Shown here piece after piece: positions 1-64,000 of a stretch of DNA of 64,000 bases. Below the pieces are notes generated by a model that saw only the letters and a list, made by a program, of their open reading frames with translations, made no database searches and was not told the DNA's origin. Source of the stretch: Asterochloris sp. CNOR1 (taxonomy: Eukaryota > Chlorophyta > Trebouxiophyceae > Trebouxiales > Trebouxiaceae); NCBI GenBank assembly GCA_963969365.1, contig OZ017762.1, positions 930,001-994,000 on the forward strand. Reading direction: 5' to 3'. Numbering within the stretch: position 1 is the stretch's first letter; each line of letters starts with the position of its first letter. A program made the translations under genes and the position numbers.

Positions 1-4
1 CAAA

Positions 5-310
5 GACCAAACTCTGTCTGCAGCAAGTATCCTCAACCTGATGGTGACAGGGTTCGAGCCAGGCAAAAAGTGAGCATCCAAATCCTGGAGAGAGTTCAGC
101 AGGAGCATCAGAGCCGCAGGCGCGCCATGGCTGCTGCTGCAGGGAGTTACCGGTAAAAACGGTCATCATGTGGATAGCACCATGAGATCATCTTGTTTGT
201 CAAACAGCAAGTGTCCAAGATCAGTACATGTGCCCTTCAAGACTTTTTGAGCGGAAGTCCTGGCGGCCAAGATTGACGTTGGTGGCGAAAACAGCAACTG
301 TGAATTGGTG
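5..310. repeat. Diverged direct repeat, copy 1 (partner at 1560-1860)
   Basis: This stretch matches 1560-1860 in the same orientation. Shared blocks include CTGGAGAGAGTT followed by AGCAGGAGCATCAGAGCC, then CACCATGAGATCATCTTG and AAACAGCAAGTGT, and finally GCAACTGTGA next to TTGGTGGCAA. On the minus strand both copies can be read as a short peptide around LLFD(K/N)QDDLMVL, so the unit may come from an exon of a minus-strand gene lying off the left edge. Stops break both copies. I see no terminal inverted repeats, so I do not call a transposon. Confidence 0.6.
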
Positions 311-2623: not shown

Positions 2624-5600
2624 ATGGACAGCACCTCTACAAGACATCTGCTCCCTGGCCAGAGAGCTTTGTGGCTACCGTGTATGCCAGTCTGTTGCCA
2701 GACAAAGTGCCACAGCCGCCCCTTGCCCTCATGTACCTCCGTCAGAAGACTCTGTAAAGCAGCACGCGTGGAGCAGCCCCGCGCTGCCCACAGCACACCG
2801 ACGTGCTGCTCCACAAGCAACTCTGCCCCCACCCAGGCACCGATCAGCTCCACCCCCCTGGCACTGCCACAATGGCCTGAAGAAGCACACCAGGGTGCTC
2901 ACGACCAGCACAGTGCACATGGAGGCAGCCAGATGCCACGCCGGCAGCTACTGCTGTGCCTGTCTGCGGCTGCAGCCGGCTGGACCATCCCAGCTGCCGG
3001 CGGCAGTGTCCTTTCTCTGGGGCCAGCTGGGGCCGCTGAGGCATTGGCAGCGCGGTTGGAGGGCAGCAGCCTCAAGCAGCTCGGCAGCTCCCCCTTCACG
3101 TGGACGCCCAAGCAGGTGGGCCCCATCAGCTGTACTCAAAAGGTATGTGGCTTCTCAGCAGGAAGAAGCAAATCACGTGCGCAGTTTCAGGCAGCAATGG
3201 GCAACTTGACCTGTGCGCATACTGCGTGGGTAGACCGCTGGAGGTCAACAGCCGAAAGCAGTTAAGGAGCTCATTTTTATCTGCACGGCCAAGCAGGTGA
3301 TGTCCTGCTGGCTGCCCTGATGCAATGTTGGGGCAGCACAGCCTCTGGGCGTTGCAGAGCACCTCTGTGGGCAGTACCTTGCCCTAGCCCAGTGTGCAGT
3401 CTGTGATGGTAGCCAGGCGGAGGCAGCAGCCTCCAGCAGTCAGCAGCTTCACCTGGGCGCCCAAGCAGGTAATTTCTTACTGGCTGCCCTTAGGCCTATG
3501 ACTTCAGAGAAGTGCAGGACTTAAAGAGTGTTGCACAGTGTGGTGGGCACCACCTTGCAAACAGGCGTGTGCGCAGTCCACCTCGTGCTGGTGGAGGCCA
3601 GCAGCTTCCAGCACATTGGGAGTCTGTTCTTCCCTGTATGAAGGTGACTGCCTGCTGGCTGCACTCAGGCCTGTGACCATCAGGTCGCACAAGCTTGAGG
3701 TGTGGCAGATCACCTCTGTGTGCAGCACTTTGCAAGCAGTCTTCTGCGCAGGCTGTGTTAGAGGCGACGCAGGTGGGTAAGACCCTCCAGCAGTTAGGAC
3801 CCTGCCCTTCATCTGGTCGCCACCAAATGGGGGTATGATCGGATGGGCTGCCAACGGCACCGCACCACCTAAGCAGGGCAGCATCACGGATCTATGCAGG
3901 CTGGCCAGTGGTGGCAACATCCGCCTGAGCGAGGACAGGGCCTTCCTAGAGACAACAACCTGCAGTTGCATGAATGCTCTGCCCAGAGATGCTGTACGAC
4001 ACCTAGGGGACAGTGTCTTGGCAGCCATATGCGCAGCAACAATTACTGAGTGGTGCCTGCAACTGCTGACCCCACACACCTGCAGGCTTACTTCCCCAAG
4101 TGGCTGTTTGGGGAGTGGGACGTCAAAGCCAAGCTAAAGGCTGCACAGACACCCCTGGGGCATGAGGCCCTGCCAAAGTCCCTTGAGCAGGTGGGGCTTG
4201 CAGTGGCAGTCTGTGCTGCGGGCTCTGCAGCATGCCTTAGGCAATGCCATTGCGAAGCTGTCCTACATTTTGTGACATGCTCCCATTGCGGCTGGTTGTG
4301 TACGTTGCATGGTCCATGTACAATTCAGATCAAACATCACGACCTTCTTGCATCTCAGCTGCATAGGAAGCTTTGCGCTTGCCTTACAGCCCTCATAGCT
4401 GCCCCACATTGCTCAACCTTTTGGGTCTGCTTTCGCAGCTACGTGCCAGAGCTGCTGGCTGGCATCCTTGCAGACCATCATGCATCTGCTACAGACCTAG
4501 GTGCAGTTTGTGGCTCTGTGGCTACAGGGTCTGGAGCCACTGCTTGGCGTCCCTTCTGGGGCCATCCTGCAGTTCAGGCAGCGATGGTATTCCACCCTGC
4601 CTGACACTTTTGCAAATAATCTCAAGGTGCGCACTGCCAATCCTAGTGCTTGGTCCTGGTGTAGTACCCTGTGACCAATGGCAAATTGCTGCTGATGTGC
4701 CCCCCTCTGTGCCTTGTGCATGACTATTGCTGATTGTATGCCCGAACGCTGGTCGTGCGTGGCTCGCGCTTGGCACACACTAAGCTGCTCTGTGCGTGCG
4801 TGGCTCTGCAGCTGTTGTCCTTGAAGTCATCTGCTTGCGCTGCGGCTTGGCACCCTGAGTGTGTGACTGCTTGCCCACTCATGGCTGCAGGTGCAGGTGG
4901 GCATCCTGCCCAATGATGCTATCATTGCAGACACTGCCTTCAACACAAAAGTGGGCAGGCTGAGTAGGCTGACAGGGCAGCTGCCTGCACTTGGGCTGCT
5001 GCTTGCACTTGGGCCATGCACAGGGGCTTCCTGCATGCACGGTGCCTCCTGTCCCTTCACCACGCGGGTGAGCTTGTGTAGGTCAGGCAGCCCTAGCTCT
5101 TGCACAGCAATTCGGCAGGGATGTTGGCAGGGGTGCCCTGCCTGCACATTCAACGCAGCAATTATATGCATCTCAGTCCCTTTGATCAAGGACTTGAGCA
5201 GCTGACAAGCAGCCTGCAAAGCCATCAGGCTGAACAGCATGAGAGCATGTTTCGCCGCCGACACCAATGGCCGCAGCATAGATCAGGTGCAAGGTGCTCA
5301 GCAGTCATCGAAACAACCAAGGCATTCTACACTTTGTGCGATCCATCATGCAGGCCTCGCTGGCTGCCCTAGCAGGCTTCCGAGGCCAGCAGAGAGAGAC
5401 TGGGCTGAATATAAATCTAATTTGCTGATTCTGACTGCCCTGCTGCAGGCCTGGCTGAACGCCCTGGCAGGCTTTGAGGCTGTGACAGAGGTTGACTTCA
5501 GCCCCCGCGAGCCTGACCGCATCACCGTCAACTTCTCAAACAGGGGCGCTGATGAGGAGCAGCTGCCTCCCCACCGGGAGGAGCTGTATCTGCAGCAGCT

Positions 5601-6275
5601 GCACACGCAGGGCGAAGGGGATGAGTTTGTGCTGAGCAGATGCTTCCGCAAGGTGCGCTGGAGTGCATGTGCAGCCCTATTGGGCTGTGATGGGCTTGGT
5701 GCGGCAGGCACAGCAGCTGCCAAAGCAGACTGCTGGGCAAGGTGATCCTTTCAAGGTGGGCAGGAGATCCTGTGCAGTGCCTTGCTTGGCCCTCTGGTGC
5801 GCTTGCTGCTGAGGAGGTGGGGCCAACAGCTGGACACGCGCACTCTCTGGCGCGCATTCCTTCCAGCACCTGGTTTTGCAAGGTGGGCAGCAGCCATGTG
5901 CCTGATTGTCTGAAGGCACATCAAAGCCAACTTGCAGCCCCTGTTGGTGGTCCTTTGTTAGAGAGTGCACGCTTCCTCGCAGCTGTCTTCACTGCCATTC
6001 TGAATCTGCAGGTGGTCTTAGGCGTGAGGGCTGTGGATGCAGTTGACTATGAAGTGGTAACCCGACACACACGCACAGCAGAGGACGCTGTGGCAGTTAC
6101 ACAGCGAGTGGCAGGTTATCTGCAGCCCCAGCAGAAGAATTACTTCAAGGCCAAGGGGCAAGCAGTGTACTTGAGAGACAGCAGCTGGGACATGCTGCGA
6201 GTCCCACCACCTGTGGACGCCACCGGGGCTGCTGCCTGCGTGGAGACCCCAAAGGGCTTCACACAGTGCCTGTAG
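2624..6275 (+). CDS. Thylakoid-lumen protein, DUF6816-like, Tat-targeted
   Basis: Six exons (2624-3115, 4086-4190, 4573-4626, 4891-4950, 5449-5652, 6012-6275) join in one frame of 392 residues. The N-terminal 100 residues are poor in acidic residues, as expected of a plastid transit peptide. They are followed by a twin-arginine signal: MPRRQLLLCLSAAAAGW at about 104-120, a hydrophobic stretch and a GAAEA cleavage-like site near 136-140. The mature part contains FPKWLFGEWDV, IIADTAFNTK, a segment ending EPDRITVNF, and AGYLQPQQKNYF. This order matches what I know of the cyanobacterial and chloroplast DUF6816 family, whose biochemical function is not known. The start was taken at the first ATG after the upstream gene's stop (about 125 bp away). 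Intron 1 holds decayed copies of the exon 1 end. The coding call is strong; the family name is from memory of motif order. Confidence 0.75.
3040..3640 (+). repeat. Decayed tandem copies of exon 1 donor region
   Basis: The end of exon 1 (GGGCAGCAGCCTCAAGCAGC, then TGGACGCCCAAGCAGGTGGG, about 3060-3120) recurs at about 3420-3475 as GGAGGCAGCAGCCTCCAGCA followed by GGGCGCCCAAGCAGGTAATT. It recurs more weakly near 3285-3320 (GCCAAGCAGGTGATG followed by CTGGCTGCCCTGA) and 3590-3660. Each clear copy retains the AGCAG/GT donor. They lie in intron 1 and read as direct, diverged duplications of the junction. Confidence 0.65.
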
Positions 6276-6561: not shown

Positions 6562-9500
6562 TCAGAGTTCAACTGACCGGCTGTATTCATTCAGGTCCTC
6601 CTGTATTGCGTAGAACTCTGTCTCCAGAGTTGTGAGTTTGGACATGAGCATACGCGATTTTGCTTTCTCCTGAGTCAGGCTTCCCTGCAGGTGGCATGTC
6701 TGGCTATCGGCAGATGTGTATGTGTCATGCGAGATGAGATTAGACCAACATCTCCAGGGCTGCAGGGTTAAGATAATCAGCAGCGGCTTGCAAATACCCG
6801 CCAAAAGCTGTGCTGCAGTGAGGTGGCTGCATTTCGCTTCCCCTAGGCAGATGTGCCAACACCATAGTGAGAGGACTGCCAGCCTGCGATACAAGCATAC
6901 ATGTTGACGTTGGCTGGCAGTCACCCCACACCAAGCAGCTGCTGCCACTACTTCAGCAACCCTCAAGCCGCAGCCCCTCTCACAGACACACCAGGTACTG
7001 ACCTGCATTTCCAGCAGCTTGAAGTCGGCCTGGGCTGCCTCCAGCTTGACTGTAACCAGCTCATCCATCACCTCATTGTGAGCCATTTGTAGCAGCTTTT
7101 CCTCACTCACTGCCAGCCGCTCTGTCAGCATGGCCTTGGCGCGCACTGCAGGCACATCATTGCAATGTCAGGCGCTGGGTCATTACTGCACATGAGAGTC
7201 TGAGGGGCACCTCTGCAGCAGCTTCTCCACCCTCACCGCCAGCTGCTTTGTCAGCATGGCCTTGGCATGCACTGCAGGCACGTGGATATCATCCATGCAC
7301 ATTGCCGGCCACATGCCTGTGGTAAGACACAACAACAGGCCTCACCTGACGCTCTTGCCATCTACAGAGCATTTCTTTGGCATGCACTGCAGGCAAGTGG
7401 ATATCATCCATGCACATTGCTGGCCACATGCCTGTGGTAAGACCCAACAACAGGCCTCACCTGATGCTCTTGCCATCTACAGAGCATTTCGTTGGCATGC
7501 ACTGCAGGCAAGTGGGTATCATCCATGCACATTGCCGGCCACATCCCCATAGTAAGACACAGCAGTAGGCCTCACCTGATGCTCTCGCCATCTACAATGC
7601 ATTTCTTTGTCCGCCCTGCCAGGCAACAGGCCACATGTCAACTTTGCCAGTGATGGTCCTGGAATGCCCTCACAGACCAACCAATGCCATCAAGCAAGCA
7701 TCTGGCTGGCGACGCCACCCAGGAAATGGCTGCCCCAACATCAGCAGACCCCCAGACTCACCCAGAGCATCATTCTCCAGCTGGAGGCGCCCAGCCTGCC
7801 TCTCTGCCTGCTGCCTGCCAGCCCGCTCTGAGTCCCGTTCTCTGAGCAAAACAATGCAGCGCTCCCTGAGAGCTTCGCAGTCCTCCTCCCTGCAGGGGTC
7901 GCAGGACTGCCAATTGGGAAGAGAAGTACGAAAGGGGGTTCTGAGAGCTGCAAGCCAGAGGAAGAGTGGCACTCTGCAGACATACGTGCTAGATTAGCAG
8001 AAGGTGCAGAAAGGTGCAGCCTGCTGGCCGAATCTGGTCGGTTCGACAGGTGATCAACCCAGGGAGTGCACCAACAGGGAGTGCAGGAGACAGGAACAGC
8101 TAGTCAAATGGTGGCCCAGAGAAGATGCTGGACCAATGTGAGGGCCCTGACAGCTCACTGTGCCCACAGACCGGCGCTGAATGCAGGGCGTACAGCACAC
8201 TCAGCAAGCAAAGGGCAATGGCAGCTGCTGGCTTTGGAGAAGCAGGAGAAGCAGATCATGCAGTCACAGGCGCCTACCTGCTGAGAGCTACCAGCTCATC
8301 TTCTGTGGTGGGCCCTGCTGCTGGCTGGACAGCATCGCCGCTGCTGTGAGCTGGCACAAGGTCCTCTGGTCTGCAATTGAGGAAAGCCAGCAGGGTGACC
8401 AAAAGGCTGCAGACAGATAACAAGCCTCGGAGAGCTTGAGGAGCTGCAACAACAACCCCCAGCAGCACAAAAGCAGCATGGGAAGCAAAGGATCCACAGA
8501 GGGCGGCAGTGGCAGTTCAAACTTGACTTTGAGTGCTGCAGTTAGCTGCTGACTCCCACCGTTTCCTGCCCCACACAGCGCTCTTGCAGCTGGCTGCCGT
8601 CTCTGAGCAAGATGAAAGAACAGACGCCATCCAGCAGCACTGTCCCTGCTATTGCCTGCCTCAAGAAGCAGGCCTGCGTCATGCAGCGGGCCTTCATCAT
8701 GCAGCAACCTGGCCACTTTTGGCTGGCTGCAAGTGAGGACCGCTCTGGGACCAAGCCACACAAGCAGTGGGAGGTCCCTCACCCTGGGATGAGGGCGCTG
8801 CCTTTCCTGCTGGCCCCGGCCAACCAGCGCTTGGCACTGGCAACAATCCCCACGCCCTCCTCCTCGGAATCGGAGTTGGCCAGCGTAGCATAGCTCTGCA
8901 ACGGGGGACGGCAGGTTTGGGCGTAGCGCTGCACAGGTGCCAGGCCCAGCAAGCTGTGCTGGCAGCGAGGAGGACATGCCTGCCCATCAGGTCTTCTGCA
9001 GGCTGTGGTAATACAACACACTAGAGGTGCGCAAATTGGCGTCCACAGCAGCGGCAACCTTCCAACAGTTCACAGGCAGGCCCCCATGACATACATGTCA
9101 GCAATCCTGCTGGAGGCGCTATCAGTGCCCCACCTCTGCCACAGTCTTCTCATAGTCCTCAGGGATGGGGGAGGCGGGGCCCTTGCTGTTGGGGGTGAAA
9201 TCTGAGGGCAGGTCCAGCGCCAGAGGGGTGCTGCGGCTGCGCCGGTGTGCAGGAATGGTGCCCTTGCTCCTGCAGGGACATGAGGGTGCTCATGCTGATC
9301 TTGCTGCTTTGTGTGGCCACTGCAGAAGGTGGCGCCTCGCTCTGTCATGGCATGCATATGCGCCTTTGCTTCTGCAGAGGGTGAGGCATGCGTGTGATGC
9401 TGTTGTTCTTGTGTGCGGTCCTCAGAAGGCAGGGTCTTGCCCTGCTGGCCGCCTGGGCGTGCCGCTGCGAACATGTTGGTGGGCAAAGGTTGTACCCTTC

Positions 9501-12500
9501 TTGCTACACAGGCTTGGGGACATCTCAGCCCTGCTGTGCTTGTGCGTGCTCTACAGAAGGCAGGGCCTTGAACTTGCAACCCGTCTGGGCATGCAGCTTG
9601 CACACCGCAGGCCTCATCTGCTGTGAACCAAATGTTATGCCCAGCCCCGGGCATGCTGTGTAGCCACTTGGCCTGCTAGGCAGGCTGCTCTCACATGTTT
9701 ACACAGGAGGCTTGCTGGAACAAAGGTGTCAGTGCAATCACCTCTGTGAGTCAATGCCAGCCTGACACACAGCGTGGCCTTGCAGGTGTGCAGCGCCTGC
9801 CCCACACCATACTAGGGGTGCCCTTCAACACGTGCAGGCACCCCACCTGGTGTGCAGGCACATGGTTGCTGTGCAGCGCCTGCCCCAGATGCTGCTGTCA
9901 GGACACCAGCCAGTGCAGGCAGCCCACCTGGAGTGTGCGCGCGCACTGTTGGGCGTGGGCGCCTGCAGCGGTGTGGCAAAGGGGGTGGTCATCTTGCGGT
10001 CGCTCCACAGCCGAGGGGTGACCTGCACGGCCGGGGAGGCACCACCCAGGGCACTGCCCCTGGCTGAGGCCGTCCTCTGCAGGCAGGGGTGGCGCATGTG
10101 AGTGACTCCAGAGGGCCATGGAACGGTGTCAAGCGCCCAGCTGCTGCCCTGTGTTGAGCTGGCCCTCTGCATGGTCAGAAGCGCCTGCAGGAAGGTCGAC
10201 GCTCATAGGATTGTGACGTGACAGGACCAGAGCACTGGCCCTGGCTGTGGGATGTGAACTGGCTACTCAGCAATGGAGCGCTGTCCCCGGCTGTCTCCTC
10301 CCTGCAGCGGCTGCAGGGTCATCTGCAGGCAGGGCAACGCTTGTGAGGGACGGTCCAAACCCTCAGTCTGGTGTGAACAGCACAGACGGCTTGCCGCCGG
10401 GCCACTGTCCCTGGCTGACCACCAACTCCATAAGAGGGGAACTCTTGGCAGCTCACCAGGGCGAGCTGCTCAGGCTGCAGCATGATGTGATGCTGAGCAG
10501 ACTGGCTTCGCGCGGGTTGAGCCACCTCATGCAGTGGTTATCAATGACGCAGCTCAGAGGGGCTCTCCTGGCTGCAGAACTGTCTGCCACCAAGCAGACT
10601 GCAAACCCATGCATCGCAGCACCTGCTGCTTGCAGATCACCAGGCTGGGATCTCCTGGCTGCAGCAAATAAGACTGAGCCTGACTGGCAGCTATGAACAC
10701 ACAGGGATTCAGCCCGCACCCTACCCACTACAGGACATGTTCATGACAGCTCACCAGGGCCTCCTGGCTGCGGCACTAGCTGCCAGCAAGTACAGTGGTA
10801 CCTAGCAGCCAAATCGACTAGTCACAGCACCTCTCACTTGCGGCTCACCAGGGTAGGTATTCTTGGCTGCAGGAATTTCTGCCCCCCAAGCAAAGCGGCT
10901 GTCACACCTGTGCCCAGACCTCGTAGCAACTGTTGTTTGCAGTCTACCAGGCTGACCTAGCTGCTGGCAGCTCACGCTCATTGTGCACAGCATACATCCC
11001 TGGCGACCTACCCGGGCGAGGTCTCCCGGCTGCGCCACCTGCGACGATGGGGGGAGCCCCGAGGCTGATGATAATCTCTTCAGCATGGGCTGCACCAACT
11101 CGCCCTGCTCCAAGGGCCCTGGCTGCCTGTCTGCACCATGATCAGGGCTGGCCTGCACAAGGGGTAAGGGAATGCTTACAAATAAGGCTTGCAGGGCCTG
11201 GCCCTTGCCCTCGTTTCCCTTGTGCAGGGCAGCCAGCCCCTGCCTGCAGTCACTGGCTGGGATGTCTCCTGAGCTGCCGCTGCGAAGCTGGCGGTTGACA
11301 TGCGCACAGACCCTGCACTGAAATGCACCTAGTCTGGCCGATGTAGCCATTGCTACAGGTGAGAGGATGGAACATCCTGATCACAGGGCGTCTGAGCTGG
11401 GACATTCACTCGATCACAGCAGGCTGCTAGAGGGAGGTTGGAGGAACAGGCACTCCTCACGCATCATGTTGCTTGCGGAGCATCCATCCTGCAGCAGCAC
11501 CTGTTCCATTGTGACCCACCTGGCAACAACAGATGCAAGGACACCCGGTGTTGTCAGAGCTGTCGGTGCACCTCCTTCAGCTGGGCATGACCCACATGCG
11601 ATGGCGACACCTGATGGCCGCACCTGTCTTGCGCCTTTGGCGGGGCTGCCTGGCAACAGGCTGCCACCTGACAGGGGCAAAGAGAAGCCCATCCTCTTCT
11701 TGGAGGGCGTCCCAGTGACTGACAGGCCTGACGCCAGGGGGCCTGCCATGGATATGGACGCCTGCCTGCCGCTGGCTGAGCTGTCATCAAAACCTTCCAG
11801 GTCCTGCAAAAGGGCAGGCACAGCACTCTGTGAAAAGCTTCACCATGTCATGGCTGGGACGGCTGTCCGATGTCATGTCCCAACTTGCCCAGCCCTTGAG
11901 GCCAAGCTGGCGGGCACACAGGTCGGGGGCTTTGCCCGCTGCAGACTGAAAGGGCTGCCTGGAACTGGTGACTGACAGGACATGTGGTGCTGTCCTGTAG
12001 AGCCTGCTTGAGCCCTATGGCCTGCTGCCTGGCAATGGCCCTGCACAGTGGTACAGCACTGCTGCTGTGAGGCGTTGATGTCCAGCATGAGCTGCAGGCG
12101 GCCCTCCCCGGACCACTCAGCTCACCTGCTCAGCCATGACCAGGTCGCTGGAGGCTGCCGACTTGCCCATGGACATGCAGCTCAGGTCTGTCATGCCATC
12201 CAGCTCTGGCTGTACATGCTGCAGCCACACTGCACGGATGCTGCAGCGCAGGGTGCCCTGCGGCCTGCAGAGCACGACGCAGCGTTCAAGCTGGGGCCTG
12301 CAAGCATGCAGGTGCTGCCAGTCAGGGCGCCGGCAGAGTCCCTGCTTCACCTTTGCTGGGGGGTTCATATGAGGGCACGGTTGACTGCAATGGATGTAGC
12401 ACTACACAGGCACCCTCCTCCTGCTTCTCAGCATTTCTCAAATCATGCTTGAGCATGATGACCAATATTGACGCCATACATGGAGGGATTGCTTGCTCAT

Positions 12501-15285: not shown

Positions 15286-27560
<12,275 letters not shown>

Positions 27561-39634: not shown

Positions 39635-39710
39635 AGCCTTTCTGAGGAGCGGCAATGCAGCGCTGCCTGATCTAGCGTTAACAGGTCATGGTCAACTGGT
39701 TGACTCCGCC

Positions 39711-41518: not shown

Positions 41519-41720
41519 CTGTTGGCCATAATGAGTTCTGTTATCATCAGATTCTCCAGCTGGATGCAGTACCTGAGATGCTTTGAGAGCAGACCGCATC
41601 ACATGTACACTTGAGATCAATGTCTGGGCTGAAGATGGCAGACACGGGTGCAGTGGAAGCAGCAGACATACATTGCATTACAACCTTGCACTGACATGCA
41701 TTGACGATCTGATCATGCTA

Positions 41721-48800: not shown

Positions 48801-51800
48801 GTCCAAAGCTGCAGTGCAAGATGATGTTGATGGCAGTGGGATGCCTTGCTCAGGCCACTGCATGGGCTCCAAAGCATGCACACGTCCAAGCGGCACAATA
48901 AGAAGCTGAGCCTTAGTGGCGGTGCAACCCCTTTGCTGCATTGCCTCGCACCCTGTGCAGGCATGAGCTGGAAATCATGAGGCAGTGCAAGAGCATGCTG
49001 AGGCTTTTAGTTCCAAGCACCCATCTGCACGCCTGCAGGACTGCCAGAGCCATGTCTTGTGCTCGGCCCTGTGAAGATATCGAAACAAGCTGGACACCTT
49101 GCAGCGATGCAGGCATGCTCTGAGCTGCCTGCTGATGCTGAAGCCAGATGACTGTGCCCCGCACAGGTGTCCAAGCGCGAGCTGGAGAATGTAAAGCAGT
49201 GCAAGAGCGCTCTGAATCGCCTACTCACACGTGTGGGCAAGATGCGGCAGACCCTGGAGGACATTCTGGACGATGATCAGGACATGCAGGACTGCTACCT
49301 GGGGCGACGCGCAGGCGAGAAGAATGCTTGGCTCTGGTGACAAAGCTCCTGCAAGCTGTAGGCAAGCTGCTTCTGCCAGATATATGAGTAGTGTAGGCAG
49401 CATAGGGCGGGCGTGCAGGTGAGGTTGGTACCATGGCATGTCTAGGCTGGCGGGACGATGGGCCCAAGCAAATCCTCTGCTGCCTGTATGTTGTGCTGTG
49501 TAGGCAGTGCAGGGTCAGAGATTGGCGAGCAAGACACACATGACTGCTGCCCGGTCAGGCGCGCAGGTCAGGGCGGGACGCGAGCCTGCTGTCTGCGCAG
49601 GCTAGCACCAGATCTGCAGTATGCCTCCCATGACCCAGAGATAAGTGCTATAGGCAGTGGAGGTTTCCCCAGCCTCAGCTGGGCCTCTTGACGTTACTGG
49701 TCAGGGCTTGTAGACCTGCAATCTGGGCAGGTGCGCAGGTGAGCTTCAGGCTGGCATGCTGGAAAGGGGCTTCAGAGAAGTCGAGAGAGGGAGCATGGCA
49801 AGGGCATGTCTGCATGCTGCGCTCCAACGCCGTCCAGGCAAGCTGGACGCAAGTACAGACTGCAGCAGGGCTGATGTGGCCAACGACCAGTTTGAACAGG
49901 GCTGCTACCTGGGCAAGCTTGCAGATGCTCAGCGTCCAGGGGGGGCCTGCGCCGGGTGGGTGCTGCATGCAGGGTGCTTCAGACCCACACCGTGAGTGCT
50001 GTGCAGCTGTTGGCATGCACGACTCCTGCTTGGCTTTGCTGAGCAGGCAGGCTCATGGCGCAAGCACCCTGCGGGCCTGCACGCCTCATTATTTTGTGAG
50101 GTGCAAGCTTTGCCCATGGCATGAAACCACCTACCTGCAGAGATGGCGGCAGCCAATGCGCAGCACGAGGCCGGCAATGACAATGGCGACACTGGTGGCA
50201 ATCCTGACCAAGATGTTGGCGACGCTGAGGCAGCAGGTGCAGTCCCCACATCATGGCTGGCAGGTGGGGCCTTGGCAGTGCCATGCACACTTAGTCAGTG
50301 ACCAGAATGTTAGGGTTGCTGAGACATCAGGTACAGCTGCTGCATCTGCGCAACCTCTGTTGGAACAGCACCAGAGCCAGACCCCCTGGCCGTAGGTGCA
50401 GGCTCTGTGCCATTGCCACCCGCTGCTGTGTCTCCTGATATCATGCTGCGGAATATTTGCTGTGAGCTGCAGGTGTGCCAGCATTGCTGGCCTCGATCTG
50501 AGGCAGCAGGTGCAGCTGCTGTACCTTCCTTGGCTGTGTTGTGGGCTTTGACGGTGAAGTTTAACATGGACAAGTCTGCAGTCCTGATTGTATCTCCGCC
50601 GTTCCTGGCATCACTGCAAGCTACCATGTGCTTAGCTTACAGACCTGCCACTTGTGGAGCATCAAGAACTCATCAGCCTGCTGCTGCTGGCCGGAACCTG
50701 AGCGCTGCAGGGTGCATCACCACTTACACTCAGTGATCCTGCTGTAAGGACTGTGGCATGCAGGACTGTATCTGACTGGAGCCGAGAAAAGCTACTGCAC
50801 CTCTGCTGCGCAGGCAGCACTGAGGAGCAGCCTGCTGCGGAGCTGCAGCAGCAGCAGTCCCTGGCTGAGGCTGGGCGCCGCAGAAGCTCAAAGGAGGCTC
50901 GCCGTGCAGCAGCTGTCACTGCTGCAGCTGTCGCCGAGGCAGGCCAGCAGCTGAGGCGTGCCAGCGGCAGCGGTGGCGGCGCCCCCGAGGGTTCTGTGGG
51001 CTCGCAGTCTCGCCCCCCGTTGAGGCGAGGCAGCGGCAGCGGGACCCCCGCAAATTCTGCCGGCTTCCAGGGCTGGGACAGTGCGCCAGGGCAGCACAGG
51101 CCAGAGGGCGACCTCTGGAGGCTGGCCACGGTGCCGGAGGGGGATGGGGCCTCCTCCCTGGCTGCCTCTATATCGAGGCCGCAGGGTCAGCAGGAGGGGC
51201 AGCGGGAGGCGGCTCAGCACCCACATGCACGCTTTGCCAATGCGGCTTCAGATGATGGGGGCGTCCGCCCCAACTGGCGCTTCAGTGACAGCAATGCAGA
51301 TGCAAGTGGGTGTGGGCTGTGGGCCGTGGATGCATCCATCTGTCTGCATCAAAGCTACGGCTCTGCAGCCCCTCAAGTCCTTGTGGGCAACATTTCTTAG
51401 CGCAGCATCTGTGGAGGGGGCGGTCTGCCCTGACCAGCTGTTCAGCGACAGCAACGAGATCCAGATGGGTTGAGGCTGTGTTGGTGGCCTGCAGGCCGGT
51501 CAGCCACAGGTGTAGATGCAATGGCTGTGAGTCCGTCAGCTCTCAGACACCATGTAACATGTGCGCAGACTGGTGCTGCAGCGGTAGAAGCGCAGAGATG
51601 CAGGTGTGTGTCGGTGGGACTGCAGCATGTACAGGCCCTTCTGCAGAGGCGCCAAAGAGGGGCCAATCTGGCCTGAGATGCTTGCAGATGCCCTGCACAC
51701 CCTGAAGTGAGGTTGCGTGCAGAGAGGGCCTGCAGAGCGCAGCAGGCAGGGGGCTGATGTACACAGGGATCAAGGGTAGCCCTAGTGATGCTGTGAACAG

Positions 51801-54571
51801 AGGCGGGCGGAGCAGTCCCGCTTTCTGCCTTCCCCTCATGAACACAGCACTTCTCAGAAGCTGTTCGTGAACATTGTAGCAGGCTCCGTTCTGCGTGCAG
51901 CCCCCTGCCTAGGGGAAGCTTTAGTGACCCAATATACAAGGTCATCATGTCTTTCTGCTGTGCAGAGGGGCAGGTAGAGCGCTCCACCTCCCTGCCGTCA
52001 CGGCCCCACGACAATACCGAGCGCCTAATGGCGCACCTCAGCCGCGCCAACTCAGCCAAGTCGGCCTCCACCAGCAGCAGCAGCAGCAGTTCAGAGGAGG
52101 GCGACGCAAAGTCGCTGGGGGTTCGTTCAGGGAAGAGCATGACGTCCCAGCGGGGCAGGTCAGCCTTCTGTGTGAGGCTCATCTTAGCCTGAACAGCTGC
52201 TCATGGCTGAGCCACGGCGTGGCTGACAGCGTGTTCATTGCAAAGGCAGATCCACTGAGGACAGGGAAGCAGAATCACTTGACAGCTCTGCAGCCCTCTA
52301 CAGACTGACTGTCGCTGGCCCAGTACTTTGTGCTGGGCCTGCAGCCCTCTGCACACTGGCTATTGCCAGCCCAGTCCTTTGTGCCAGGCGTGTAGCCAAG
52401 GTCAGCAGCTTTCCCCGCGGCCACGGTCAGCAGCTTCCCCTGCGGCCTTCCAGACCACCAAGCTCTGCCAGCTCCTGCAGATGTTGCACACCATCTGAAG
52501 TTTGTCACAAAGAGCCACCGCAACACTGCGCAGCCGGTCCAATGCCTGCTGTGGCAACACCTGTCACCAGCCCAGCCAACTCTTGTGCCTTGGCCTGCAG
52601 GTCATTGACAGCTATTCAGTATGTCACGATGCGCCAGCGCAGCAATGCGCAGCGCATTCAGCACCTGCTGCAGTCACAGCTGAGTGCTCTGCAGTCCCCT
52701 GCAGGTCGTTCACGTCCCAAAAGTCAGTCACCGAGCGCCAGCGCAGCATTGCGCAGCGCATTCGGCGCCTGTTGCGGCGGCAGTCCACCAACATGGCAGC
52801 ACGGGGCCGGGCTAACCTGCTGGGCCTGGCAGCCACTGCAGAGGACATGGAGGGTGAGTGCGGGCCGAAGGCTTATGATGCGAAGCTGCTCACATATGAA
52901 AAGGCCCTATGAGAGTGCATGCACGGCAGGGACAGTAGCAGCTGCTGCCAAGGACATGAGAGTAAGCCTGCTGATGACAGTTTCAAATGTTGAATGACCT
53001 ACAACAAGCTTGGGGAAATCATGACTTGGGGTTGAGTGTTTGAGCAGCTATGTGCAGCATGGGCAGCATGGCCGTGACTCTGCTGCAGGCCCCAGTGTTG
53101 GTGCCCTTCCTAGATGCGACAGATTCCTCTCTGTTCAGCTACACTCTGTCCTGCCAGGCCCTGAAGGCTGAATCCAGCGCCACTAATAGCTCTGCACTCC
53201 AGCATGAAGTGTCCTGCCCTTACCCTGCAGAACAGCACAGCAGCATAGAGTGCCACAAAACGCTGAGCATGATGACACAGGGAGCTCAAACACCTGGTCC
53301 ACTGCCTGCAGATGACGAGGCAGCCATGACCTGGCTGCAGACCCTGAATGTAGTGGACCCCCACCACATCGAGGAGTGTGAGGCGTTATTTGAGGCCTAC
53401 TTCATGCAGGTGGCCCTATGTTGATTGCCCAGCAGGCTGGCAGGAGCATGTAGGCTTGAGCAAAAGGGCTGTGCGTGCATGCCGCAGCATCCTGTGCAGA
53501 AGGAGCTATCTTAGAGTACTGTGCAGCCTTGTTTAGCATATGTGCTTGGCCTGCTAGTCCACCAGATGTCATTGATGCAGCCAGTTGTCGGAACGTGCTG
53601 GAGCAGCTCATACTGTGTGCGTGAGAGGTCTCCAGCATGCAGCCAGCTCTGGAATTCGACAAGGTCGCAAAACAAGCAGCCAGCCTGATGAGGCAGTTGT
53701 AGCTGGATCCGCCCACTCGGGCCAGCTTTATCTGTTCAAGGCAGCACAGCAAGGGTGGAGCAGCAGAGGGGTGCCTGCACAGACTGGCACCCTTTCCACC
53801 AGCCACCAAGACGAGCTGATGGCATCAGTATCTGGTGTATGTACCGGCAGCCCGCAGCTTTTGCTAGAGGGGCGTACGCAGCTGTGTCCCTGTAAGTAGG
53901 GGCCAGGCCGGTCAAGGAAAAGGGGCCTCTGCCTGCAGGTGGACTTCCTGCTGAGCAGGCTGTCTGTTATGAAGGAGAGGGTGGAGGCCACCCAGGCCCT
54001 GGTGGCCATTGACTTGGATCAGAGACGAAATGAGCTTGTGGCCTTCGACCTGGTGTGATTGGGTCTGCGTCAAGAGCAGCAGTGCGTGGCATGTAGGGCA
54101 GGCACCTTGCCATACTTTGCAGGCAGGGCAGTGAGGCCTGCAACCTGCACAGTGTGGCCCTCTGTCTGGCGGTCTCCCACCTGCCGCAGCACCTGCAAGT
54201 CGGCTTCAGGGACTGGTGGCCTGCCTGGCACTGATCCCGTGGGCTCGCCTGCCCTGCAGGTTCTGACCATCATCACAGTCGCGCTGGCGTCTGTGAGCGC
54301 CTTCTCGGGCCTGATGGGCATGAACTTGTAAGTGGTGGCGGCTGTTGTAGGGCAGCCTTAACCCTGCCATGCCAATGTGCATCCCCCTCTTTTCTGCAGG
54401 TATTTCAATTCTCAGGCCACGACCACGCAAGACTTCTACTCAACATTTTCTGCCATCATAGCTTTTGGAGTTGTGATGCTGGTGGCAATCCTGTGGCTTG
54501 CTGTGTACAAGAGGGTGCTGAGTACCCCTCCTTTGCTCCACAAGCTGCTGATGGCTCCCTTCAGTCTCTGA
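45872..54571 (+). CDS. MRS2/CorA-type magnesium transporter
   Basis: Thirteen exons (45872-45944, 46026-46111, 46373-46441, 47042-47211, 48077-48269, 49167-49314, 50814-51305, 51966-52158, 52705-52853, 53312-53409, 53939-54052, 54260-54327, 54400-54571) give 674 residues in one frame. The N-terminal domain has RKWLRVDDSG, YRDLRILDP, YPTAIFIREKALVVNLESIR and LPFELKALEAAL. Helices LLTRVGKMRQTLEDILDDDQ and IEECEALFEAYFMQ flank the insert. The first membrane helix (VLTIITVALASVSAFSGLMG) ends in the GMN signature, followed by YFN and a second helix (FGVVMLVAILWLAVYK). MRS2 proteins form Mg2+ channels in mitochondrial, plastid or other membranes; no clear transit peptide is visible. Residues about 247-524 (exons 7-9) are a Ser/Ala/Gln/Arg-rich insert with a polyserine run, far longer than the linker in usual 400-450 aa members. 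Exon 6 uses a GC donor. The 81-nt intron 1 is in frame and stop-free. Confidence 0.93.
47262..47450 (+). repeat. Two decayed copies of MRS2 exon 4 end
   Basis: Exon 4 ends GCCCTCAGCCCAGCAGCCGC, then AGACGCCTGCTTTTCCCAC, with the donor TCAA/GTGAGT. A copy at about 47269-47335 reads GCCCTCAGCTCAGCAGTCGC, then AGATGCTGGTTTTCCCCAT and GTCAGGCAAGTC. Another at about 47376-47440 reads GCCCTCTGCTCAGCAGCTCA and ends GTCAGGTGAGC. Order, orientation and donor position are kept. Confidence 0.9.
48412..48600 (+). repeat. Two decayed copies of MRS2 exon 5 end
   Basis: Exon 5 ends with GGCTGCAGCCCTCGCTGGAC then AGGCTGTCAGTCAGG/GTGAGC. Copies lie at about 48414-48455 (AGCTGCAGCCCTCACTGGAA, then CGCATGTCAGTCAGGATGAG) and about 48557-48600 (TCTGCAACCCTTGCTGGACA). 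The first copy has lost its GT (GGATGAG). Both sit in the following intron. Confidence 0.9.
48955..49010 (+). repeat. Decayed copy of MRS2 exon 6 acceptor end
   Basis: The block GTGCAGGCATGAGCTGGAAA, then TCATGAGGCAGTGCAAGAGC, mirrors the exon 6 start at 49161-49212 (CACAGGTGTCCAAGCGCGAG, then GAATGTAAAGCAGTGCAAGA). The acceptor AG position is preserved, and the copy lies upstream in the same intron. Confidence 0.85.
49405..49930 (+). repeat. Several copies of MRS2 exon 6 donor region
   Basis: Exon 6 ends CTGCTACCTGGGGCGACGCG, then CAG/GCGAGA. Downstream blocks resembling the donor side occur at about 49409-49430 (GGGCGTGCAGGTGAGGTTGG), 49557-49575 (AGGCGCGCAGGTCAGGGCGG) and 49727-49750 (GGTGCGCAGGTGAGC). 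A block resembling the exon side lies at about 49900-49925 (GCTGCTACCTGGGCAAGC). The copies have GT where the used site has GC. Confidence 0.65.
51415..51480 (+). repeat. Decayed copy of MRS2 exon 7 end
   Basis: GGGGGCGGTCTGCCCTGACC, then AGCTGTTCAGCGACAGCAAC and GAGATCCAGATGGGTTGAGG, mirrors exon 7's end at about 51257-51320 (GGGGGCGTCCGCCCCAACTG, then GCGCTTCAGTGACAGCAATG and the donor AA/GTGGGT). The copy's donor is weakened. Confidence 0.8.
52500..52690 (+). repeat. Two copies of MRS2 exon 9 start, upstream of the exon
   Basis: Exon 9 starts GCAGGTCGTTCACGTCCCAA and continues with GCGCCAGCGCAGCATTGCGC. A copy at about 52598-52685 reads GCAGGTCATTGACAGCTATT and then GCGCCAGCGCAGCAATGCGC, followed by the same AGCGCATTC. 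A weaker copy lies at about 52500-52550 (AAGAGCCACCGCAACACTGC followed by GCAGCCGGTCCA). The nearer copy keeps a CTGCAG/GTCA acceptor. Confidence 0.88.
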
Positions 54572-55717: not shown

Positions 55718-58700
55718 TCACTTGGTGATGCCAGCTTTGGTGACACATGGGCCCCATACACTGATGAGGCTGGAGGGCTGTGCTGCTGCCCAGGCTGCTG
55801 CTGCCGAGGTGCTGCCACTGCTGATGCCCCTCAACAGGCTGGTACAACACTGCACATTGGCAGCTGGCGTCGACGGCAGCACATTGCTGACCACTGCTGC
55901 AGCACCACGCAGGGACAGGAGAGCAGCGGTGCATGCTGGCTTTATCAGCTGCCTGCCCTCCACGTCTTGTCTGCAATTGACGGGGCTGCAACATCAACAA
56001 GTACTGCAACTGCTGCAAGCGCATGCATTGAAGCCCCCACATTCAGGTGGACCTGAAGGCACAGATGGCACAATGTGTGCGCCAGATTGGCCATGACAAC
56101 ATGCGAGCATGTGCCGACCTGCTTTCCAGGTAGCCCTGCCTGCGCAGCGACTCCTTAGTGTGCGCGTGCCCAAGCAGCAGGGCAAGGCTGCTCTGCCTGA
56201 GGTCGGCGGTAGCCACAGCCTCAGCGGAGACATAGTTGAGGAAGGCGCCCATGCCGCAGTACAGCAGGCCAGGGGCTGCAGTCAGCACTTGCTGCAGCTC
56301 TGCATCGCCTGCACAGGGAACAAGCTGGTGTCAACATGTACTGGCAGTGTCTCAGGCTCGCACACCATGGCCAGCCGCAAGATCTGGAAACACACCTGTT
56401 GCAACTGTGGCCTTGATGACAATGCCTGTCCTGCCAAGCTGATTTGCAGCCCTTGGCTTGAACGATAGGCACGCCATAAGACTTTACCAAAGCCACGCAC
56501 ACAGACTCCCACAAGCTCACGCAGAGCCACACCTGCGCAACTCTGCCCGCTCCCGGCCACCCCTGTCCACTCCTTGCCCCACTGCTGCAACACCCCCTGC
56601 TGGAAGACTCCCACCAGATCAGCAGGGGGCCCAGCGGAAGCAGCCGCCTTGGCCCCCTGGGGGCCTCCCTTTGCTGGGGGGTGAGGCTGTGCTGCAGGAG
56701 TTGCTGGGCCCGGGGTGTGCTCCTTGCGGGGGTCGACAATGTAAGCCATGTTGGCTGTGCTGGGCGCCTGCACCATTTGGAGCAGACGTATGAGAGTCAC
56801 CTTGATTATGATGTCTGCAGGGCTGGACAGCCAACGTGATGCCATACATTGCACTGGGAGTGCGATCACAGAGCAGGGATGCCTCCCGTCATCTCCGTGG
56901 GTTCAGGCTGCTCGTCGCCTCCCGCTGTCTGGAAGGCACCTTACCTGTTGGGCGGCGGGTGACTGCAGCCTGCTGTGCTGCACATGCAGCGAGAAGTCCC
57001 TGACGACTGCTGCCTGCTGCAATGCCTGCAGGCACCGAGGCAGCAAGGCTTGAGGTGGTGCAGGGAGGCAGGCCAGAGCAGCTGCAACATGCCAGGCAGC
57101 AGTGCAGTTCCCCGCTACAGCACGGCAGTGCAGGCGCTGATGCTGCAGTGCAGCGCTGCAAGCTGAGCAGCCTTGCCAGGTGCAGGTTTGCTTGTGCTTG
57201 CCTGCAATGCCTCCAAGGGCAGGCCCTCCAGCAGAGGGTCCGCGAGCAGCAGCACAGGCTGCAGGCCGCCGCCTACGTCCTGCTGATTCTGAGTGCGCCC
57301 CTTGGGCACAGGGGTGCCGCCAGGGGGTGTGGTGGTGCGGTGCTGCAAGCCTTGCTGTATCATGGGCAGCAGTGGCCCCAGCGCTGCCTGCTGTGATTGC
57401 AGAAGAGCCTGCAGGGCAAGGGCGAGCCGCGGCTGCAAGACGCAGGTCGTGGGCATTTGTAATGTTTTGGCGACGTGCAGGGGTAGCAGGCTGCCTGCTG
57501 CGACTGCAGCAGAGCCTGCAGCCGGGCAGGGTCTGCCCCAAAGGTTCGTCAGCCGTGACAACCTCAAGGTGAGCAATGGAGAAACCTTGGAGCAGATCTT
57601 AGATCCCACATGTGGTCCTGCGTCTGTGTCAAAGCCCATGGCTGGTTCTGACATAGGCATGAACAGCTCGCTGCCTGGGTGCATGGCGCCAGTCGCCCAG
57701 TTGTTCCGCTATAAGTGTCAGCGCACGGGGCTGATGCTAAAGCTAGCAGGCACGCCAGTGGCTGTGCAGAAATAATGGCAGCCCAGAGCATGCCAGGCAT
57801 CCCTCAGCCCCCGCTCCTGAGCAGCCAGCAATGCATGTTGAGCCCCACACGCACCTCCCACTGCTGCATGAGGGTGCTCGCCTCAGCGGCAGCACCACCT
57901 GCTCCCTCACCCCCCGGCCTGTCTGGAGCGGCAGCCAGCCTGGCTGCGCCCCTCTCCCCAGCCTCAGCCTCCGCCACCAGGTGGCGCTGCTTGCGGCACT
58001 TCCAAGCCTCCACCTGCTCCAGCAGACTCTCAAGGGCAGGAGCATTCAGGGGCATGTGCGCAACATAGCTGGGTGGCAGGGGCTCTGGCGGTGGCGGCTG
58101 CTCCCCTGCAATCCGACAAGTCATGTGTTCATACACAGTCCAGGGCTGCGAATGTCAGAGTCCTGAAAATTGGGGGGCTTCGGCAACATATCATGCCCCC
58201 CTGCAAATTATCAAGGACCACAGTCAGTGCAGGGCTTCAGGTTGCAGGTGTATGTATGCCCCATTTGGGGGGGGAGGGGGGCAGGGGGGGCAGTGGCTAT
58301 CGTGATTGGGATTGCTCCTCTGCAGAAGGGCAGTGGGCCAGTGCTACATAACACTGGCTCAGGTAGCAGCGGCCACTCCCTGCACAAGGTTGAGCCAGCA
58401 TTCACGGCGTATGTGGGAGGCAGCAGGAGTCCATGCACATCGGACTGCTGCTTCCTCCCACCCAGCCGGCCACTCAGGGAACCCCAGCCGGAGGCTCAGG
58501 GAACCCCACCGAGCGTGTCAGGAAGATGCAGCGAGCCTCTATAGACAGGGGGACCCTCAGACATGCTGCAGACCAGCAGGAAGGCCCAGACACCGACGGG
58601 CAGACCTGTGCCGCTCACCTGGCTTCAGCTTGGGGGCTGCTGCACCAGGTGGTGCTGCCTGACGGCCTGTTGTGCTGGCACACCACAGCCTGCCCCTGCT

Positions 58701-61700: not shown

Positions 61701-64000
61701 AGCAACAGGCACAGGGCTGACAGGGCGGCTCTGAATGAGCCGGAGGGGAGGCAGGCCAGCTGCCCTGCGAGCCCCTGAGCCGTTGTCTGCACTCACATGC
61801 ATCTCTCGTGCCTGAACCTCTGCCACCTGCACCCCAACCTCGATTGCATCATCTTGCAGGCTTGTCACCGGTCCTGCTGGCGCAAGTGTTTCAGGACCCA
61901 GATGATTGAAAAGCATGCACATGCTCCAGCACACTTGGACACCTTTCACATGCTGCAATCAGCAGTCATACAGGGTACAGCATAGCGCTCAGGCTCAGGC
62001 CATGATGCATGTTGCCTATGCTGCCAGCGCAGTACCTGCAGGATGTTGAGAGCCTCCTTCAGCATCAAGCGTGTGTCGCTGCTGCCCTCTTGTGCCTCTG
62101 TGCAGGCCTGACGACGAAGCAAGTCAGCCTGAGCTAACAGGGCTTGCACATGAATCGGGACCGAGCCTGCAGCACACCAATGTCACCATGTGACTTGCCT
62201 ATATCAAAGGCCCTGAATATATGCAATGCCAGTGGATTTGAGCAGAAACAGCAGGAGTGCGCTGCAGCATAGCCTCACCATACTGAGACACTGTATTTAC
62301 TGCAGTACGCAGGCTGATCAGGGCTGTATCTGCACTGCTGCTAGCAGCTGTGAGTGATTCCTGGCCCAGCATCAGCTGCAGCTGAGCAACTGCCATGGCA
62401 GCATCTGCGCTGGCAGGGCTGTCCCTGCACCAAAGACCACAAACATTCAGGCACAGCTCGAGCAGTGCTCCTGTCTGCTGTTGCATGCAGGCACCTGGCG
62501 CCTGGGCCTTGGCCGCCCTGCAGGCCACAGCAGCCCACTGACAATGACCCAAGACACTGTGCTGCCATGCGCACAGCATGGGTGTCATTGCTGGCAGCCC
62601 TGTGAGGCGGACAGCAGGGGTGCAGCAACACACATCAAACCCCAGGGCTGCTCTGTCCACGGCCACCGCTGGGGGGCAGGTCGAGTAAGCAGGTCATTGC
62701 TCATCGAACCAGCTGCTGGCAGAATCTTGCAGCACAGCACATCAACTGTGTTTTGCTGCAGAGGTGTGGAAGGCAGTTGCTGTACTATTACCATGCTGCT
62801 CATGCACTACATTGGCATCTCAATCTTCCGGCTGAAGCAATGCAGCTGTCAAGATGATCCTATAAGAGAGGAAATCAGAAGATTTCAGCCTCGCTCCTGT
62901 ATCTGAGATACTCCAAGAAGCTTACCTGGCTATCTGATGGAGCATGGCGGCAGCCCCCTCAAGGGCCTGCTTCGCATCCAGCAAGCCTCCCCTCATCTGC
63001 AGCCGAGCCTGAGCGTACAGCTCAGCTGATTGCTGCCAGAAGGCCGCATCCCCTCCCTGCTGCTGTGCGTCCTGAACAAGCAGCACTGCTGCCCCTGGGC
63101 TGTTGGCCAGCACCTCCAAGCGGGCCAGGGACAGCAGGCATTCTGCCACAGATGTCGAGGCGCCTACTGCCTTGGCGTACCCCAAAGCCTCCGTCAGCAG
63201 CTCCTGTGTGTTCAGCAAGGGTTTGCAGGGGTTGGTATGCAAAGCCAAGTGCTGTGATTTGGTCAGTTACTTACAGCAGCTGTCCATGTCCAAACAGGGC
63301 ACACATTGGCTGCCAGATAATGTGCCAATGCTTGTGTGAGCAAACGATTGAGCACAGACGGCACAGAGTGTTCCTTCTTAAACAAAGAGGCACTAGGTGT
63401 CCAACGCGCTATGCCTCAAGCTATAGGGGTGGTCAGGTGGCTGTTCCTAGACACACCTGCAGCTGCCTCAAGCTATAAGGGTGGTCAGGTGGCTGTTTCT
63501 TAGACACCCCTGCAGCTGCCTCAAGCTTACAGGGTGGTCAGGTGGCTGTTTCTAAAACACACCAGCAACTGCCATGCTGGCTGACGCCAGGGGCTCTTAC
63601 CTTAGCTGCAGCATATTCGCCGTTGACTGCCAGGCTCATGCCCAGCTCCCTCCAGGCATCAGCGGCAGACAATGGCTGCACAACACCCAGGGCCTGCTGT
63701 ACCACAGTGGCAACTCCTGCGGCACAGCGCAAGCAATCAGGAGGAGCGCTGAAAGTGCCCAAGCTGGCAGTACCTTGGGGTGCTGCATGAACAATCCATG
63801 CAGAGTCTGAGTCTACGTCTCAGTGGACGATCACACACACTCACCATAACCAACACAAGGTGGCCTATTTGCGGTTGCTGTGCTGCCCTGTAGAAGAGGA
63901 TGTCTTTTACAGATACCACCTTAGACTACCTTGTTGTGGAGTTGCTGACTTCTGACTGCGCCTTGGGGCCCCAGTCACTGGGCGACCCCCGGGAGGTGCA
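55718..64000 (-). CDS. CFAP46-like ciliary helical-repeat protein (N-terminus beyond window)
   Basis: The gene runs off the right edge; only the C-terminal part is present. The last exons are phase-consistent: 57408-57202 (LQPVLLLADPLLEGLPLEAL), 57025-56945 (VVRDFSLHVQHSRL), 56767-56533 (NMAYIVDPRKE, then QQWGKEWTGVAG), 56308-56119 (LLYCGMGAFLNYVSAEA) and 55970-55718 (TAALLSLRGAAAVVSNVLPS, then TGA). From memory of the family, the order PLEAL, RDFSL, YIVDP, YGMxxFL and ALLSLxG...VxNxxP is the C-terminus of CFAP46 (FAP46), a TPR protein of the ciliary central-pair C1d projection. Upstream exons encode helical, Ala/Gln-rich repeats: about 63230-62925, 62590-62280, 62160-62035, 61330-61140, 60900-60590, 59840-59610 and 59455-59300 (EVLLLRLRDALRLSQPAW). 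Low-complexity linkers lie at 61860-61500 and 60410-60230. The 57202 junction uses a GC donor (TTGCAG/GCAAGC). The coding call is strong; the name needs a profile search. Confidence 0.72.
58261..58292 (+). repeat. G-rich tract, possible G-quadruplex
   Basis: Runs of 8, 6 and 7 G residues separated by single A or CA lie on the plus strand, inside an intron of the minus-strand CFAP46-like gene. The transcript would carry the C-rich strand, so any quadruplex would form on the non-template DNA rather than the RNA. Confidence 0.6.
58700..58885 (-). repeat. Two direct units of about 95 bp in the CFAP46-like gene
   Basis: GCAGCACCAGCACGC followed by AGCAGCTGCAGTG(G/A)AGAAGCACC and GAGTC occurs at about 58711-58775 and again at about 58807-58868. 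On the minus strand one unit reads LLPRSVRVLVLHTDAS, which may be the end of a true exon; the other is its duplicate. Confidence 0.8.
63413..63572 (-). repeat. Three tandem units of about 53 bp
   Basis: GCCTCAAGCTATAGGGGTGG, then TCAGGTGGCTGTT and AGACACACCTGCAGCT, repeats three times with few differences. It lies in an intron beside the exon at about 63720-63605, whose donor side (CTTACCTTAGC) is close by. The near identity points to recent expansion. Confidence 0.92.

Follow-up and report, generated by a model that had tools for sequence, protein, structure and literature searches.

Worn Copies of Exon–Intron Junctions inside Algal Introns as Probable Fossils of Small Local Duplications

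Introduction

The stretch of DNA considered here, referred to as the window, comprises 64,000 nucleotides of the nuclear genome of the green alga Asterochloris sp. CNOR1 (GenBank contig OZ017762.1, here C17:930001-994000). Most of it is covered by seven gene models, three on the forward strand and four on the reverse. Five of these were submitted to Pfam and matched SufBD; FSH1 with a Ran-binding domain; MRS2-like; NT-C2; and DUF6816. A further gene resembles cyclic-nucleotide-dependent kinases. Within the introns of these genes, and of genes on other contigs, lie worn direct copies of the intron's own exon edge and splice site, which are the subject of this article.

To our knowledge, the lengthening of established introns without transposons is poorly documented. 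Decayed junction copies provide a countable and datable record of small duplications, and they allow a test of how splicing ignores near-perfect decoys ~100 bases from the real site. Gene predictors, too, can be misled by such scars.

Gene Models and Splice Sites

The genome consists of 21 contigs totaling 56.4 Mb, and the window has a GC content of 55.8–62.1% per 4 kb. The analyzed sample is 314 kb from 11 contigs, window included, on which a hidden Markov gene finder written for this analysis was trained without supervision. The splice consensus that it learned is (C/A)AG followed by GTGAGC at the donor and (C)TGCAG followed by G at the acceptor. The learned acceptor is an unusually rigid 3′ splice site, with TGCAG near-fixed (T 91%, G 94%, C 97%, AG required) and a C before it in 62% of cases, a signal that self-training may sharpen.

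The unpenalized gene model produced 832 exons, 200 of them shorter than 30 bp, and turned some junction copies into tiny false exons. A junction scan of 165 introns from that model (ungapped score of at least 18) gave positives at 11/165 donors, 9/165 acceptors, 16/489 interior points, and 31/765 exon points. Penalizing weak exons left 467 exons, 11 of them below 30 bp, and all counts reported below come from this penalized model. Its 423 predicted introns were filtered to 237 by requiring flanking exons of at least 40 bp on both sides, coding support, fair splice scores, and a length of 100–1500.

These gene models are self-trained predictions, two of which were checked by homology. Predicted SufB aligns with solved SufB over residues 82–548 (E = 4.8e-193), ungapped at the junctions of introns 30055, 30722, and 31437. 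A hand-assembled kinase-domain piece of the cyclic-nucleotide-dependent-kinase-like gene aligns with PKA, ungapped at junction 18659/18049.

Junction Copies within Introns

Of the well-predicted introns in the sample, about one in four contains a worn direct copy of its own exon edge together with the splice site. Each junction with 50 bp on either side was aligned, with gaps, to its own intron, and a match was counted when it scored at least 18 and crossed the junction by at least 6 bp on each side. Copies were found for 29/237 donors and 21/237 acceptors, together in 46/237 introns and 21 of 42 genes. At the same score, inverted controls gave 0/237 and alignments to other introns 0/1185 on each side; at a score of at least 16, the controls gave one donor and two acceptor matches when inverted and two and five, respectively, in other introns. 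Intron-side copies prevail, 50 against 3 in the exon neighborhood (29 donor copies versus 2 upstream, 21 acceptor copies versus 1 downstream, n = 237 each). Across five filter settings, the positives were 45/230, 46/237, 47/242, 20/82, and 10/34, with no inverted match in any setting and 2, 3, 3, 0, and 0 matches on the wrong side.

A second scan used only exon letters, with the 45 bp exon edge as the query and a score of at least 16. It detected copies for 25/237 introns on the donor side and 14/237 on the acceptor side, with no control match in ~1185 tries each (5 and 2 at a score of at least 14). The union of both scans contains 59/237 introns, of which 20 are among the 53 in the window and 39 among the 184 on the ten other contigs. 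The distribution is uneven between contigs, with 2/37 on C1, 9/26 on C3, and 0/3 on C12. One of the 59, the predicted intron at 38259–38377, is a different case, with its copy at the acceptor and a doubtful gene model.

The initial annotation had reported such copies in at least seven genes on both strands of the window, without preservation of the reading frame, and both observations hold. The 20 positive window introns are spread over all seven gene models and both strands. The distance from real site to copy, with a median of 155 bp for donor copies and 123 bp for acceptor copies, is a multiple of three in 5/25 donor and 6/14 acceptor copies of the exon-letters-only scan. Copies that keep the frame and remain open up to the copied site number 3/25 for donors and 1/14 for acceptors. 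Introns with copies have a median length of 550 bp against 317 bp for those without, a comparison in which longer introns are also easier to score.

Faulty gene prediction, or GC-rich sequence of low complexity, is a very improbable source of the copies. The junctions do rest on predicted gene models, an early version of which made tiny exons of some copies, but controls made of the same letters give zero at the thresholds used, and the copy-bearing SufB junctions, along with one kinase junction, fit solved relatives with no gaps there. The copies identified in the window are collected in Table 1.

Table 1. Junction copies and associated features of the window, in window coordinates.
Position	Strand	Feature	Real site and host intron	Remarks
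3447–3470	+	Donor-edge copy	Real 3094–3117; intron 3116–4085	Exon-edge match
5731–5809	+	Donor copy	Intron 5653–6011, DUF6816 gene	Score 21
7210–7281	−	Acceptor copy	Real 7084–7155; intron 7146–7761, NT-C2 gene	Score 44; extends into 115 bp × 3 array 7262–7609
9826–9854	−	Donor copy	Real 9907–9935; intron 9270–9927	Junction scan
18455–18499	−	Donor copy	Real 18652–18696; kinase intron 18050–18658	Score 26; junction compared with PKA
20612–20704	−	Donor copy	Kinase intron 20092–20878	Score 36
22255–22313 and 22096–22159	−	Donor copy and acceptor copy	Kinase intron 21981–22386	Scores 19 and 20
22567–22616	−	Acceptor copy	Real 22486–22535; kinase intron 22524–23032	Score 21
24291–24316	−	Donor-edge copy	Real 24592–24617; kinase intron 23981–24594	Exon-edge match
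26031–26104	−	Donor copy	Kinase intron 25741–26384	Score 29
29075–29156	+	SufB donor copy	Intron 28990–29389	Score 20; GT lost
30033–30068	+	SufB real exon edge and donor	Intron 30055–30580	Exon boundary fits SufB protein alignment
30085–30227	+	Two joined plastid fragments (30085–30146, 30138–30227; 9 bp common)	SufB intron 30055–30580	Match to C21
30224–30255	+	SufB first copy, exon edge and GTGAGC	Inside intron 30055–30580	Distance 186
30262–30297	+	SufB second copy, exon edge and GTGAGC	Inside intron 30055–30580	Distance 229, 43 bp after first copy; gapped score 30
30966–31035	+	SufB donor copy	Intron 30722–31349	Score 22; exon-edge 19 at 31008
31667–31709	+	SufB acceptor copy	Real 31750–31792; intron 31437–31759	Score 25; CTGCAG kept
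35911–35968	−	Donor-edge copy	Real 36082–36139; intron 35385–36084, FSH1 gene model	Exon-edge score 25
38259–38377	−	119 bp predicted intron, end resembles upstream exon end		Repeat period 119; candidate duplication-born intron, doubtful gene model
47259–47440	+	Two successive donor-edge copies (47259–47330, 47403–47440)	Real 47148–47219; intron 47212–48076, MRS2-like gene	Distances 111 and 224
51416–51480	+	Donor copy	Intron 51306–51965, MRS2-like gene	Score 28
52584–52671	+	Acceptor copy	Real 52688–52775; intron 52159–52704	Score 31
57490–57521	−	Acceptor copy	Real 57383–57414; intron 57409–57854	Score 28

Plastid DNA in a SufB Intron

SufB works in the plastid in plants. In the SufB intron 30055–30580, the real junction lies on one side and its two copies on the other, with two plastid fragments between them. 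The first fragment is 89% identical to C21:61540-61601. The second matches C21:79749-79837 at 87–88% on the opposite strand, within a PsbJ-like frame, and overlaps the start of the first edge copy by 4 bp. The 215,390 bp contig C21 is taken as the plastid contig because this frame, a putative PsbJ, lies in it. Plastid DNA between duplicated ends would be the expected trace of end joining at a staggered break, and the flanking of the two fragments by the SufB junction and its copy thus points to end joining of staggered breaks.

Among the 50 copies, 38 are separated from their junction by a spacer of at least 45 bp, and all 38 spacers were searched against the whole genome. The SufB spacer alone has a clear outside source, and therefore no mobile element is needed to account for the copies. 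The other spacer matches are one of 77 bp at 80% on C9 and a local one at 76%.

Local Direct Duplications

Junction copies are accompanied by many other local duplicates. Over the 314 kb, 297 direct matches 20–600 bp apart reach an ungapped score of at least 18; inverted matches number 20, and a single Markov-2 shuffle yields 2. The corresponding numbers for the window alone are 81, 0, and 0. Direct repeats per offset fall about 65-fold, from ~1.3 at 20–100 bp to 0.02 at 600–1000 bp. The duplicated segments are short, from tens of bp up to ~100, and are located in introns, across exon edges, and between genes. At a score of at least 20, their density varies several-fold between contigs: the window has 61 in its 64 kb, the sampled 40 kb of C3 and of C1 have 44 and 6, respectively, and 10 kb of C12 has none.

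Pairs that have both members in presumably neutral DNA occur at similar rates in intergenic DNA (3.6 per 10 kb; 21 pairs over 58.9 kb) and introns (4.8 per 10 kb; 83 pairs over 171 kb). Local direct duplicates scoring at least 18 occupy 8494 of 98818 intron bases. Near-identical tandem pairs (identity of at least 0.93, period of at least 15) have at most 1 bp of extra end homology in 10/10 cases, a small sample that, by this test, includes none of the junction copies in the 59 introns. Among the few very young events sampled is a perfect 25 bp tandem duplication at 17677–17725, in an intron of the kinase gene.

Proposed Origin of the Copies

The junction copies are probably neutral fossils of small local duplications that arose from the repair of broken DNA. 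A staggered break, or two nearby nicks, would be filled in, and end joining would then duplicate the overhang, sometimes taking in filler such as plastid DNA. Splicing from the outer donor to the outer acceptor would leave the mRNA unchanged, and the duplication would survive while the intron grows. With the outer site available to splicing, duplications that span a junction would be tolerated, and they would remain visible because the exon copy is conserved. With the exon half of each pair conserved and the intron copy decaying, junction copies may be the most visible part of a general process.

Possible traces of a tandem origin are seen on the donor side and in intron interiors. The sequence past both copies is still alike (p ≤ 0.05) in 11/25 donor-spanning and 9/32 intron-internal events. 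The initial annotation had proposed that introns lengthen by repeated duplication of exon–intron boundaries. The lengthening part agrees with the repeated local duplications that put junction copies inside introns and add length, while a targeting of boundaries finds partial support in the placement counts.

Placement Relative to the Junction

Classified by place, 48 duplications are intron-internal, 28 are donor-spanning, and 20 are acceptor-spanning. Exon letters alone pair with the intron in 32 cases on the donor side and 10 on the acceptor side; 45 pairs are exon-exon and 1 joins an exon to the next exon. These classes were compared with a simulation of single tandem duplications placed uniformly over conserved exons and decaying introns, run at twelve settings. 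The observed ratio of donor plus acceptor events to internal ones is 1.0 (48/48) and the simulated range is 0.64–1.01, near uniform placement. An apparent 2.3-fold junction enrichment (48 observed versus 20.6 expected), computed with the aligned length, was rejected in favor of the simulation, since a tandem unit of length d can straddle a junction in ~d different positions.

A boundary-directed process, in which breakage or duplication occurs preferentially at exon–intron junctions (transcription- or R-loop-linked nicks being one possible cause), is unlikely. The near-uniform class split argues against it, as do the duplicates found between genes and the match ends, which do not all coincide with the splice site. 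Conservation of exon and splice motif alone also raises the junction-to-interior ratio in simulation. Other measurements favor it. Counted per point, junctions are covered at 29 and 21 of 237 against 90 and 118 of 2360 random intron points, a 2.39-fold excess that is above all eight simulated neutral settings (1.07–1.89). When exon letters are left out of the query, the first 45 intron bases are copied downstream in 5/139 introns and the last 45 upstream in 8/139, against 13/556 interior segments each way (score of at least 14); at a score of at least 16, the counts are 5 and 6 of 139 against 6 and 6 of 556. Such exon-blind copies are thus 1.5- to 4-fold commoner at junctions than in the intron interior. 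Exon edges, in turn, are copied into their own intron in 26/139 cases on the donor side and 13/139 on the acceptor side, against 3/114 and 2/120 for exon-interior segments (score of at least 14).

Taken together, the counts suggest that random duplication, splicing tolerance, and conservation of the exon partner account for much of the junction signal. A residual junction excess remains, and it favors the boundary process of the initial annotation. A bolder version holds that, in this lineage, break-and-fill duplication is concentrated at junctions, so that splice sites would seed their own decoys and intron growth would proceed mainly at the edges, with acceptor copies that stay intact being retained and buffering or tuning splicing; it is speculative and, on balance, unlikely.

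Shape of the Scars

The per-point and exon-blind excesses weigh against an origin in randomly placed repair duplications, and so do the following observations. No per-point simulation setting fits all rates and intron lengths together. The matches are small in proportion to their spacing, with a median ratio of length to distance of 0.30 against 0.61–0.84 for simulated tandem units; they reach 11.5 bp into the intron against 28–39 bp simulated, and their identity is 0.78 against 0.82–0.87. Exon-only donor pairs number 32 per 28 spanning ones, whereas simulations give 0.29–0.67 per spanning pair. The residue of tandem sequence is weak at acceptors, with 3/18 events, two of them from one array. 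Copies of any kind occur at 26.5 per 10 kb in exons, 16.0 in introns, and 7.8 between genes, so that introns carry twice the intergenic density. Filler was recognized in 1/38 spacers, and the plastid DNA of that SufB spacer could have entered after the duplication. The repair mechanism itself is read from old scars.

Because the matches are shorter and more diverged than simulated, many pairs would no longer be simple tandem copies. In simulations of short copies plus filler, the extents are 27–32 bp in the exon and 23–28.5 bp in the intron, with a junction-to-interior ratio of 1.32–1.89. Pure tandem simulations give 46–48 bp, 37.5–43 bp, and 1.07–1.32. The real per-point values of 34 bp, 22.5 bp, and 2.39 are nearer to the former, a model that yields junction rates that are too low and introns that are too long.

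Fate of the Copied Splice Sites

The initial annotation expected the copies to furnish ready-made alternative splice sites. Neutral decay of the copies can be compared with their retention as alternative or regulatory splice sites. Such functional decoys are improbable. Donor copies from the exon-letters-only scan have GT at the junction position in 13/25 cases, under the neutral expectation of 16.5, and only 4/39 copies keep the frame with an open extension. Acceptor copies, on the other side, have AG in 13/14 cases against an exon-decay expectation of 9.0, and 11/14 of them reach or exceed, in score, the tenth percentile of real sites, compared with 9/25 donor copies. The difference in retention between donor and acceptor motifs has a Fisher p of 0.013, uncorrected and one of several comparisons. 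CTGCAG is in any case frequent in intron interiors (296 occurrences, 1.3 times the first-order expectation), which may contribute to the acceptor AG retention.

Over all 237 introns, profile-defined donor-like sites show no sense-strand enrichment (274 in sense versus 258). The exact word AGGTGAG is sense-enriched (20 versus 6, p = 0.009), as one of nine words and uncorrected. In the 59 copy-bearing introns, the donor profile count is 117 versus 81 (p = 0.013), which is partly circular. An apparent extra retention of splice motifs in an earlier count came in part from demanding at least 6 bp beyond the junction and was set aside for a recount without that demand.

Comparison with Known Sources of Introns and Repeats

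Of the explanations weighed, the least credible is that the copies are birth marks of introns born by tandem duplication of an AGGT-containing exon segment or by insertion of a mobile introner. One candidate, the intron at 38259–38377, has a repeat period equal to its length. The signature of AGGT duplication is otherwise nearly absent, in that the exon end equals the intron end in 1/237 introns and the start of the next exon equals the intron start in 0/237, and the copies lie more than 100 bp from the real site at the medians given above. The initial annotation's separation of the junction copies from AGGT intron birth is thereby upheld. Near-identical copies in unrelated genes, as expected of introners or mobile introns, were not found in a search of 38 spacers and one triplicated junction against the alga's own genome, in which the best candidates were scored and very common words were skipped. 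No dispersed relatives of the spacers were found by this search, and introner and transposon readings gained no support.

In AGGT intron gain, as here, splice sites are supplied by local tandem duplication, but that route requires an exonic unit and creates a new intron (PMC3443670). A tandem duplication across an intron–exon boundary made a new intron in the potato RdRp gene (PMC4974935). The boundary-crossing duplication copies an acceptor in both systems; the potato event is a single case that yielded a new intron, whereas here an existing intron would grow and none is made.

In new introns of Daphnia pulex, internal direct repeats have been interpreted as traces that staggered double-strand breaks leave behind and that passively add to intron length, and one neointron resembled mitochondrial DNA (PMC4202315). 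The likeness lies in intron-internal direct repeats that would add length as break scars. In Daphnia, however, exon-edge repeats are 4–12 bp and sit at the opposite end of the new intron, and internal repeats occur in 16.2% of established introns versus 61.1% of new ones (PMC4202315). The present copies are tens of bp long, carry the donor or acceptor of their own intron, and lie in introns that are not known to be new. Rogers and Bendich (2025) described direct repeats near the borders of 213 introns, with a mean of 11.4 bp, and invoked break repair (PMC11782384). Those repeats pair the 5′ and 3′ borders and are read as insertion scars, whereas the present copies are longer, duplicate one junction inside the intron, and are set against matched controls.

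Fill-in and end joining at breaks with complementary 3′ overhangs generate small tandem duplications (PMC8355091). These duplications share with the present copies a direct orientation, a local position, and a similar size class; they were produced experimentally in mouse embryonic stem cells, whereas here the process is read from old scars. Activation of cryptic splice sites by intragenic tandem repeats can occur in human paralogs (PMC2812944). Among the matches listed from the open-licence literature, no title or abstract described decayed copies of introns' own junctions on a genome-wide scale.

Other Features of the Window

Rfam and tRNA scans of the 64-kb window gave no matches. The single gene model at 33741–43629 holds both the FSH1 hydrolase domain and the Ran-binding domain and probably represents two adjacent genes merged by the predictor; its exons at ~38050–38510 are doubtful. 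Besides the array of Table 1 at 7262–7609, for which a genome search matched only its own place, a second tandem array within a gene region consists of three units of 53 bp at 63412–63573.

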